Assembly (NCBI RefSeq): GCF_017410345.1
Contig: NZ_JAFQQZ010000044.1
Location: 1 to 64,000, forward strand
From: Methanobrevibacter sp.
Lineage (GTDB): Archaea; Methanobacteriota; Methanobacteria; Methanobacteriales; Methanobacteriaceae
DNA: 64,000 nt
Direction of reading: 5' to 3'
Shown here: positions 5,593 through 45,767 of the stretch, in pieces
Numbering within the stretch: position 1 is the first letter of the stretch
Layout of the letters: every line of letters begins with the position of its first letter
Translations under genes and position numbers: made by a program
The notes under the pieces: model-generated
What the model was told of the DNA's origin: nothing
The model's database searches: none
What the model saw: only the letters and a program-made list of their open reading frames with translations

Positions 5593-5970
5593 TTATGGTT
5601 TAACTATAAAAGAAACAAATCCATATGGTAAAAAAGAACTTTGCTCTTGTACAACTTCACCATGTTTAACGACTTGGACATTTAAAACATCTGAACTGCC
5701 ATCTTGTTTTGAAACTTGGACATTAATTTTTTCACTACCATTAAAGTCTAAATCAATAATTTGATCTCCATGCCCTACTATTACTTTAACTGTATCATCA
5801 TTTTGAACAATACCTTGCCATTGCCCATCATAATTAACTTTTAATTGTGTCCCAGAGCCTATGCCTCCAAGGGCAAGTAATAAGATTGCCGCTAAAATAA
5901 AGAAAGCAACTATAATGACAATTGCCTTTTTATTCATATCCCATTCATTCCAAGTATCTAAAATACTCAT
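5593..5970 (-). CDS. single-pass membrane-anchored hypothetical protein
   Basis: Not recognised as a named family. 125 residues: a short cytoplasmic start, one hydrophobic segment at about residues 15-37 (KAIVIIVAFFILAAILLLAL), then a beta-rich domain of about 85 residues that should lie outside the cell (KVNYDGQWQGIVQNDD onward). Small proteins with this plan are common in Methanobrevibacter. A GAGG site lies upstream of the ATG. It is transcribed alone, with about 240 bases of promoter DNA shared with the divergent DUF308-like gene. Confidence 0.7.
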   Translation of the reverse strand: MSILDTWNEWDMNKKAIVIIVAFFILAAILLLALGGIGSGTQLKVNYDGQWQGIVQNDDTVKVIVGHGDQIIDLDFNGSEKINVQVSKQDGSSDVLNVQVVKHGEVVQEQSSFLPYGFVSFIVKP

Positions 5971-43029: not shown

Positions 43030-43674
43030 ATGAACATATTTTACAAAGATGGTGAAATAGCTACTAAAAACTTGGCTCCTGGAATTAGGGTTTATGATGA
43101 GAAACTCATTCAAGATGGAGATGAAGAGTACAGGATATGGAATCCGAGAAGGTCCAAATTAGCTGCAGCATTATTGAACGGATTGGAAGGGCTTAATCTG
43201 GAAAACGATTCAAAAGTCCTCTATTTAGGCGCTTCAACAGGAACAACCGTTTCACACATTTCAGACATTTGTGATGAAGGATTGATCTATGCTGTTGAAT
43301 TTTCACCTGTCAGCATGAAAAAATTGGTGAGGCTATCCCAAAAGAGAAACAATATCATTCCATTGCTTGCTGATGCCACCAAACCGAAATATTACCTAAA
43401 CAAAGTTGAAAAGGCAGACCTTGTTTACTGTGATGTGGCACAGGAAAAACAGAGCGAATTATTCATGGATAATATGAATCTCTTCCTAAAGGAAGACGGA
43501 CAAGGCCTAATTACCATAAAAGCAAGAAGCATTGATGTTATCCAAAAGCCTAAAAAAATATTCAAGGATGAAGCAAAAAAAATAAAGGAAAATGGTTATT
43601 CCATTTTGGAAAAGATTAAGTTAGAACCTTATGAAAAGGACCATATAGCTTTTCTTGTGGAGAAATCTTTTTAA
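43030..43674 (+). CDS. flpA: fibrillarin-like rRNA/tRNA 2'-O-methyltransferase
   Basis: Catalytic subunit of C/D box RNPs, transferring methyl from SAM to ribose 2'-OH. Motifs: KLAAALLNGLEGL, the SAM site VLYLGASTGTTVSHISDI, YAVEFSPVSMKKL, and the catalytic region LVYCDVAQEKQSEL with ITIKARSID. 214 residues, normal. TGTGA lies before the ATG. In an operon with nop5, the usual archaeal arrangement. Confidence 0.95.
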   Translation: MNIFYKDGEIATKNLAPGIRVYDEKLIQDGDEEYRIWNPRRSKLAAALLNGLEGLNLENDSKVLYLGASTGTTVSHISDICDEGLIYAVEFSPVSMKKLVRLSQKRNNIIPLLADATKPKYYLNKVEKADLVYCDVAQEKQSELFMDNMNLFLKEDGQGLITIKARSIDVIQKPKKIFKDEAKKIKENGYSILEKIKLEPYEKDHIAFLVEKSF

Positions 43675-44136
43675 AAGAACATATATTCCTTTTTCAAAAA
43701 AAACCATTTTCAAAAACCATATAAAACTCTTATTTTAAGTTAAAACCACCATTTTTTTATTAAAATTATAAAATAAAAATTTATTTTATCTAATAATTTG
43801 TTTAATCCATTTATTTATAATATTATTAGAAAATATTAATATATCATTCTAATATCAATTATTCAACTACTTTTTATGATTAGATTGTAATTTAAAGCTC
43901 TAAAAATCCTTGTTTTATAAGTATTACTTTTATCAAAAAATTTCATTTCAAAAAAGAAAAAATACAATAGATTTTTTAAAAAAAATTGATTAAAATTAAC
44001 TGAAAATTAAAAATAAAACTAATATAATTTTAAAAATGAAACTTGGAAAAATTTAGCATAATAAACAGTAATTTTAAGTAAAAATAAGAATTTAGTATAA
44101 TCACGAACAATATCAAAAAAGTATTACTACTGAAAC
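43675..44136 (+). other. first half of a 908-base gap between convergent genes
   Basis: AT-rich with no gene. AAGTATTACTTTT (43919-43931) is an exact inverted copy of AAAAGTAATACTT (44383-44395), and AAAAGTATTACT recurs at 44117-44128 just before the promoter of the candidate RNA. These may be binding sites around it. Confidence 0.35.
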
Positions 44137-44149
44137 CTTTTTATATAAG
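44137..44149 (+). promoter_or_regulatory. promoter of the candidate RNA
   Basis: GAAACC followed by CTTTTTATATAAG (44137-44149) has the form of an archaeal BRE and TATA box and predicts a start near 44170. Neither flanking gene needs a promoter here because both run toward this gap. Confidence 0.55.
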
Positions 44150-44169
44150 AATATTACAAATATATATTT

Positions 44170-44270
44170 GCTAATGCAATAAAAAAAGAGTTCATAAAAA
44201 TATCCTCTAGGTTAATTCACTCATAAAAAACACTCCATAATTAAATAACTTAGAGGATTGAACTTTTTTT
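44170..44270 (+). ncRNA. candidate small structured RNA between flpA and coaBC
   Basis: Predicted transcript of about 100 bases. ATCCTCTAGGTT (44202-44213) pairs with AACTTAGAGGAT (44247-44258), 12 pairs with one G-U wobble and a 33-base loop. AGTTCA (44189-44194) and TGAACT (44259-44264) extend the stem after a 7-base bulge on the 5' side. A T-tract ends it (44264-44270), and a TATA box lies 25 bases upstream of the start. It has no usable reading frame and I find no C or D box, so despite its position beside nop5-fibrillarin it is not evidently a C/D guide. Function unknown; an orphan terminator is the alternative. Confidence 0.5.
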
Positions 44271-44582
44271 GCAAAATAAACTATTTTTAATGCTTTTTTT
44301 ACAAAATTTTATCAAAATTTTAAAAAATATTTCTAATTTTCCCTTATTTTCAAAAATAAGAAAGAACTACTAATTTTTATAAAAAAGTAATACTTTTTTT
44401 AATTTTTATCAAAATAAAAGCAAAAAAGAAGTATTAAGAATAATAAAGGAAAATATTTTAAATTTTTAAAGAAAAATAAGGAAAAATATAAGAGAAAAAT
44501 TATATAACGAACAAAAAAAATCATGACTAAAAATAGATAAAGAAATAATTAAAAAAAATTATGAAAAAAAATAAAGAAATAA
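44271..44582 (-). other. AT-rich end of the gap downstream of coaBC
   Basis: No gene. It holds an AAAAGTAATACTT copy at 44383-44395, and ATAAAGAAATAATTA occurs twice near 44536 and 44571. Long A/T tracts probably act in ending coaBC transcription. Confidence 0.35.
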
Positions 44583-45767
44583 TTAGTTTAATTTTTTAGA
44601 GACCTCATCAAATATTGATTTGGAAATCTCTCTTTTGGAGCTTAATGAAACCTTCTTGACTTCATCGCTTACAAGAATGACTTCATTGGTCTCAGATCCA
44701 AATCCGCATCCTTCATGGGAAACATCATTGGCCACTACCAAATCAGTGCCCGCTTCCTGCATTTGGGTTTTAGCGCAATTGATCATCTTCTCTTCTGAAA
44801 TATTGTATTCAGCCTTAAATCCAACCAGGAATATGTCCTCATTGATCTTCTTAATCCTTTGGATTATCTTTGCAACAGGCTCGAATTCCAATGACAAGTT
44901 ATATGATGATGAGATCTTGGATTCCTCCTTATTGATTGGAGTAAAGTCAGAAACAGCTGCAGTGGCTATGAAAACATCAAAGTCAGGAATCAATTCATCT
45001 ATCTTCTCGTTCATTGCACTGGTTGATTCCGCATCAATCACATTGAATGCCTTTGGAATGGAAACGGAATGATGAGCTGCCAATATTGTCAGATTAGCTC
45101 CTCTAATGAATGCTTCCTTAGCAAGTTCCAGCCCCATCCTTCCTGAAGACCTGTTGGAAATTCCTCTTATAGGATCAATCTCTTCAAAGGTTCCTCCTAA
45201 GCTGATCAATACGTTTTTCCCTGCAATCTTGGATACTTCCTCATCTGCAATGCCTTTTTTTACCTTATCCAAATTAACTGCCCTTACAGATTCAAGAACT
45301 ATATCCTCAATGGCTGGGAATTTGGCCTTTCCTTCATCAATGCGAGGATTGACAAATCTGATGCCCTCTTCTTTAAGTTTCTCCACATTCTCACTTACCG
45401 CATCATACATGGAATCATGCATTGAAGGGACGAAAACAATAGGTGTGTCATGGCCATAAGCGGTAATCAGTAGAGTGCTTACTGGATTGTCAGAAATCTT
45501 ATATGCAAATTTGCTGATTGTATTTGCAGTAGCTGGAGCAACCAAGATCAAATCGACTTGAGAATACCTTACATGCTCTATCTTTCCAGTCAATTCCAAG
45601 ACGACTTCCTGACCTGTTGCAAACTCAAGAGCATTCGGATGAATGATCTTTGTCGCTTCCTTGGTCATGAATGCCTTGACTGAATGGCCTTGCCTTCTAA
45701 ATTCCCTTGCAAGCTTAATGGTTTCAGTTGCTGCAATGCTTCCAGTAACACATAAAACTATTTCCAT
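44583..45767 (-). CDS. coaBC: bifunctional phosphopantothenoylcysteine synthetase/decarboxylase
   Basis: Two steps of coenzyme A synthesis. The N-terminal flavoprotein half (CoaC) shows VLCVTGSIAATETIKLARE, HPNALEFATGQEV and LILVAPATANTISKFA; the C-terminal half (CoaB) begins near residue 190 with VLISLGGTFEEIDPIRGISN and SSGRMGLELA, then VVANDVSHEGCGFGSETNEV. 394 residues, normal. GTGAT precedes the start. Archaeal CoaB uses ATP or CTP; the choice cannot be read here. Confidence 0.94.
   Translation of the reverse strand: MEIVLCVTGSIAATETIKLAREFRRQGHSVKAFMTKEATKIIHPNALEFATGQEVVLELTGKIEHVRYSQVDLILVAPATANTISKFAYKISDNPVSTLLITAYGHDTPIVFVPSMHDSMYDAVSENVEKLKEEGIRFVNPRIDEGKAKFPAIEDIVLESVRAVNLDKVKKGIADEEVSKIAGKNVLISLGGTFEEIDPIRGISNRSSGRMGLELAKEAFIRGANLTILAAHHSVSIPKAFNVIDAESTSAMNEKIDELIPDFDVFIATAAVSDFTPINKEESKISSSYNLSLEFEPVAKIIQRIKKINEDIFLVGFKAEYNISEEKMINCAKTQMQEAGTDLVVANDVSHEGCGFGSETNEVILVSDEVKKVSLSSKREISKSIFDEVSKKLN

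Follow-up and report, generated by a model that had tools for sequence, protein, structure and literature searches.

A conserved, probably nickel-regulated small RNA gene between flpA and coaBC in Methanobrevibacter and its relatives

In the window (the whole 64,000-nt stretch of Methanobrevibacter DNA that was analysed), flpA, encoding a fibrillarin-like 2'-O-methyltransferase, and coaBC converge on an intergenic gap. Judged from its sequence, this gap holds a stand-alone gene for a non-coding RNA of ~100 nt, located ~500 bp beyond the flpA stop codon; its transcription is predicted from an own promoter, a conserved structure and a terminator, and the segment 44170-44270 contains no reading frame (Table 1). 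The initial annotation had proposed an independent small RNA gene at this position with both neighbours pointing into the gap. The proposal is supported by synteny, by compensatory base changes and by the presence of the RNA in 95 of 139 genomes of the family, and the flanking genes converge in nearly all homologs.

Table 1. Features of the flpA-coaBC region (positions in the window).
Feature	Position	Strand	Basis or remark
flpA, convergent neighbour	43030-43674	+	NCBIfam NF003276
Distal 5' operator AAGTATTACTT, perfect palindrome GTA-W-TAC	43919-43929		at about -250; kept in the window's genus only
Promoter-proximal operator AAGTATTACTA	44119-44129	+	directly upstream of BRE
BRE GAAACC (44132-44137) and TATA TTTTTATATAA (44138-44148)	44132-44148	+	conserved in homologs
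Small RNA gene	44170-44270	+	covariance-model match 44170-44272; covariation; fold z -4.15
5' tag GCUAAUGCAAU, nearly invariant; mini-hairpin UUGC-UAAU-GCAA	44170-44180	+	identity 0.97 across nine genera
Lower helix, 5' arm	44183-44194	+	pairs with 44259-44270, 12 pairs
One-sided bulge, 7 nt	44195-44201	+	fold
Upper helix, 5' arm	44202-44214	+	pairs with 44246-44258, 13 pairs
Conserved 31-nt loop with two CACUC motifs	44215-44245	+	homolog conservation
CACUC motif copies in the loop	44216-44222 (UUCACUC); 44230-44237 (ACACUCCA)	+	
Upper helix, 3' arm	44246-44258	+	fold, covariation
Lower helix, 3' arm, with first U-tract (44264-44270)	44259-44270	+	
Further U-runs (44284-44288 and 44294-44300)	44284-44300	+	U-rich pattern recurs in homologs; probable alternative termination points
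Downstream operator AAGTAATACTT	44385-44395		site at +163 to +220 in 49 of 50 homologs
coaBC, convergent neighbour	44583-45767	-	NCBIfam TIGR00521

The predicted RNA start lies ~24 bases past the centre of the TATA element, and the BRE/TATA-like box noticed in the initial annotation is present. The motif AAAAGTATTACT, which had also been seen just before the promoter, is borne out there, but it had not been recognised as an operator common to nickel genes. Its identification as the operator AAGTAWTACTT in front of the BRE/TATA box, made by sequence comparison, is the main new point of the present analysis. The centre of this operator is ~-46 from the predicted start, and 47 of the 49 homologs with upstream sequence carry AAGTA[AT]TAC at -47 to -51 relative to the 5' tag, the remainder being degenerate. 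The flanking copies at 43919-43931 and 44383-44395 are indeed exact reverse complements; their 'inverted' orientation adds little, because the 11-mer AAGTATTACTT is palindromic.

The stretch 44114-44290 folds with a minimum free energy of -30.1 kcal/mol, compared with -15.6 in shuffled sequences (z -4.15), and none of 200 shuffles is as good. The 12-pair stem and the 7-base bulge described earlier both stand, but the extension past the bulge comprises 13 pairs instead of six; the T-tract after the stem is where it had been placed. The CACUC-containing loop is a candidate seed or protein-binding region. An archaeal C/D box RNA was rejected, as 44170-44270 contains neither RUGAUGA (the C box) nor CUGA (the D box), in agreement with the initial reading that neither a C/D box nor a reading frame is visible, and no Rfam hit was obtained. 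In Rfam 15, nothing scores above the gathering threshold, and the best chance hit at E up to 10 (E 0.37) lies outside the RNA, which agrees with the suggestion that the element is undescribed. A cis-acting metal riboswitch was also rejected, both neighbours being convergent in nearly all homologs.

A DNA similarity search located the region in relatives. The covariance model, built from 16 sequences, matches the 95 Methanobacteriaceae genomes in 9 of 17 genera at E <= 0.001, with one copy per genome save a second, contig-end match in one of them. A refined model applied to the whole order matches 99 of 151 genomes at E <= 0.05; all belong to the Methanobacteriaceae, and one carries two partial hits. 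The genera without a match include two with reasonably complete genomes (g2 and g3), and six genomes of the window's own genus, mostly incomplete (62-90%), also lack one. The gene order flpA-RNA-coaBC is preserved in nearly all loci having both genes in reach, and the stem is kept in the relatives that share this order. In an alignment of 50 homologs fitted to the covariance model, which leans towards structure, standard pairs occupy 87.8% of the pair cells and 16 of 24 pairs change on both sides, compared with a shuffled mean of 9.8. The covariation score in this alignment is 0.277 versus 0.170 in shuffles (reached in 0 of 500), and sliding the pairing partners destroys the signal. An unfitted MAFFT alignment yields covariation of the same sign (score reached in 0 of 500 shuffles), with double changes in 6 of 24 pairs.

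Across nine genera, the operator has a mean pairwise column identity of 0.94, the BRE/TATA box 0.77, the RNA 0.71 and the 3' arm of the lower helix 0.92, compared with 0.42-0.43 in the flanks. Because the operator, promoter, RNA and 5' tag lie so far above the flanks, the region is not a product of chance. When 85 thousand species genomes were scanned for the operator followed by 34-46 bases and the 5' tag, 49 of the 50 matching contigs came from Methanobrevibacter or its near relatives (M. filiformis, M. cuticularis, M. olleyae, M. millerae, Methanovirga, Methanorudis and another Methanobacteriaceae archaeon). The sole bacterial contig, from Winogradskyella (L219, 1895-1961, minus strand), probably matches by chance.

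The operator recurs throughout the genome. The 11-bp palindrome AAGTAWTACTT occurs 21 times per strand, compared with 4 for the reversed control, and 36 copies of the 15-mer AAAAAAGTATTACTW are present when up to one mismatch is allowed, compared with 3 for its control. Operator-adjacent ORFs were read and then matched to protein families. Sites were found at CbiM, two NikA-like binding proteins and a heavy-metal P-type ATPase; at McrB, FrhA, Hmd and HmdC; at HypA, which is followed by HypB; at the sirohydrochlorin nickelochelatase CfbA; beside CfbB; at an ECF ATPase (cbiO); and in a feoB-side intergenic region. Several sites precede an operon of FdhA-like, FrhB-like and MvhD/FlpD-like genes (L090 2932-4527; L028 514-1590, minus strand), which resembles the Elp module and may tentatively be named so. 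The same operator-defined regulon contains a nicotianamine-synthase/CntL-like gene (Pfam NAS; L027 2423-3244, minus strand), hinting at a nickel-binding metallophore in Methanobrevibacter. Other genera carry the operator at mcrB, cbiM, nikA, hmd or the ATPase. Some sites are not at nickel genes; several adjoin genes of unclear role, and certain weaker matches fall inside ORFs. Taken with its gene list, AAGTAWTACTT is read here as the mark of a nickel regulon, to which the RNA gene is assigned.

The arrangement of the sites differs among promoters. At importers, GTAWTAC sites are paired 31-33 bp centre to centre, over or downstream of the TATA box; such pairs were found in four genomes (G000, G055, G051 and G127; loci L025-L038 and L102-L152), at the promoters of nikA, cbiM, hmd and the metal P-ATPase. 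This spacing corresponds to about three helical turns, compared with 20-22 bp in bacterial NikR operators. Single upstream sites are located at mcrB, frhA, hypA and cfbA, and the RNA promoter lacks the 31-33 bp two-repeat spacing.

A nikR gene is present in the genome, and NikR is the most likely protein to bind AAGTAWTACTT. In Helicobacter, the half-sites of NikR are the pentamers TRTTA/TAWTA, spaced by 20 nt (PMC5385501), and TAWTA is the core of GTAWTAC, which thus resembles a Helicobacter half-site; the E. coli NikR operator is GTATGA-N16-TCATAC (PMC7055735). The assignment is kept provisional because the spacing of the importer pairs is unlike that of bacterial operators. In Methanothermobacter, nickel limitation lowers Frh and Mvh and raises Hmd, Elp and a NikR homolog (PMC12350162, PMC3087415).

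Precedents exist for a small RNA under such control. The promoters of NikS (HPnc4160/IsoB), Nrr1 and Nrr2 of Helicobacter pylori contain NikR sites (PMC5385501, PMC8322730), and the promoter described here likewise carries the nickel-regulon operator (AAGTATTACTA, 44119-44129), for which NikR is predicted. These RNAs are bacterial and are likened to the present one by logic, not by sequence; NikS further differs in targeting virulence and outer-membrane genes and in having a phase-variable promoter tract. Closer in domain is sRNA154 of Methanosarcina mazei, an archaeal, intergenic RNA of ~130 nt whose promoter contains the operator of NrpR, a global nutrient regulator (PMC3177094). It differs in answering to nitrogen rather than nickel, in its operator and family, and in belonging to Methanosarcina rather than the Methanobacteriaceae.

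We consider it likely, with a probability of about 0.7, that the RNA is a nickel-regulated, trans-acting small RNA of a Methanobrevibacter-type nickel regulon. A nickel-responsive regulator, most likely NikR, would bind AAGTAWTACTT beside the BRE/TATA box, probably together with the second operator copy ~265 bp downstream, and the operator position would tie RNA synthesis to nickel supply. The exposed 5' tag, the CACUC-containing loop or both would then let the RNA act in trans to adjust messages that serve the use or uptake of nickel. Metal-sparing small RNAs such as RyhB, which are made at metal scarcity within the regulon of a metal repressor, follow a similar logic; the RyhB type is bacterial, Fur- and iron-dependent and requires Hfq, and sparing is only proposed in the present case. 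As a tentative extension, the RNA could be a nickel-sparing or nickel-switching RNA that is made at scarce nickel and helps to shift both electron flow and metal use off nickel enzymes.

Target prediction covered stretches around the operators plus the window, and no conserved mRNA partner was found among the genes examined. The prediction is weak because the loop core, ACUCCA, would pair with a ribosome-binding context that is very common. In six genomes, the bipartite TGGAGT...GAGTG pattern was found only at the RNA locus itself and in unrelated places. Two candidates were rejected. For the loop and the leader of the mcr operon, a pairing of -18.1 kcal/mol was obtained, an energy that 1.4% of random tiles reach, and the leader arm varies between species. 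In a ribosome-binding-site scan, the metal P-ATPase came second of 141 here and fourth of 42 in another genus, but it failed in close relatives, and its gene is absent from several genera having the RNA. The mcrB leader of the window's genome (L099, about 5602-5720, minus strand) is in its own right a strongly conserved, structured 5' leader. An invariant outer stem GUAUACC/GGUAUA, inner hairpins and a conserved GGAGGG site are observed in most aligned genomes (others L156-L178), and the leader has no Rfam match; it could be a riboswitch or a protein-binding leader.

The sign of the regulation and the mode of action each admit another reading. Repression by Ni-NikR, with the RNA made under nickel limitation as are the NikR-repressed Helicobacter RNAs, is given slightly better than even odds by analogy, and might involve looping to the downstream operator. 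With the opposite sign, a nickel-bound regulator would activate the RNA from the BRE-adjacent site, and the RNA would shut nickel-independent or uptake functions at plentiful nickel. This scheme, which we regard as somewhat doubtful, fits the position of the operator just upstream of BRE, where importer operators are instead paired over or downstream of TATA, and single upstream sites also occur at mcrB, frhA, hypA and cfbA; some of these require nickel. By operator position, activation is nearly as good as repression. The precedents are nonetheless repressor-controlled: Nrr1, Nrr2 and IsoB/NikS are under NikR (PMC5385501, PMC8322730), and sRNA154 carries the operator of the nitrogen repressor NrpR (PMC3177094). 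The conserved second operator also suggests looping repression, and precedent thus gives repression a slight preference. As to the mode of action, the presence of two almost identical CACUC motifs within a single open loop, the conservation of loop and 5' tag beyond structure, and the absence of a conserved mRNA partner from the searches around operators and window would all suit a protein-binding decoy, as in CsrB, rather than an mRNA-pairing RNA. There are only two motif copies and no known archaeal protein partner, and a decoy appears unlikely.

It is improbable that the operator is that of a different metal regulator, such as one responsive to zinc or cobalt, and that the RNA answers another metal. 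Sites at cbiM-type importers and in the feoB-side region would agree with such a regulator, and according to one review, a Methanothermobacter homolog of NikR might be zinc-responsive (PMC3087415); nickel, however, is the common factor of hypA, cfbA, mcrB, frhA and hmd. A stem flanked by an A-run and a T-run between convergent genes could be expected of a bidirectional terminator or 3'-UTR element of flpA and coaBC, but this explanation is very improbable for an element with its own conserved BRE/TATA box and operator, ~500 bp past the flpA stop, with a conserved 31-nt loop, a 5' tag outside the stem and two operators that have no other gene to serve. Hardly credible is a minus-strand small protein gene, GGAGTG...ATGAGTGAA, suggested by a ribosome-site-like string: in the window the frame spans 5 codons, and it is not conserved, as the largest genus group lacks its start codon.

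The preferred reading, a nickel-regulated RNA acting in trans, bears on a central dependence of these organisms, as methane formation relies on nickel enzymes, namely methyl-CoM reductase and the NiFe hydrogenases. Methanogens re-route their metabolism at scarce nickel (PMC12350162). Methanobrevibacter is the predominant group of methanogens in the guts of humans and ruminants; no description of how it controls this switch was found in the open-access papers searched, nor was an earlier metal-regulon small RNA in archaea. The operator AAGTAWTACTT and its gene list provide a testable operator and testable targets for archaeal NikR. A conserved small RNA within the operator-defined nickel regulon would add a post-transcriptional layer to nickel control, and the RNA presented here probably represents a hitherto undescribed regulator through which methanogenic archaea of the gut adjust their use of nickel.
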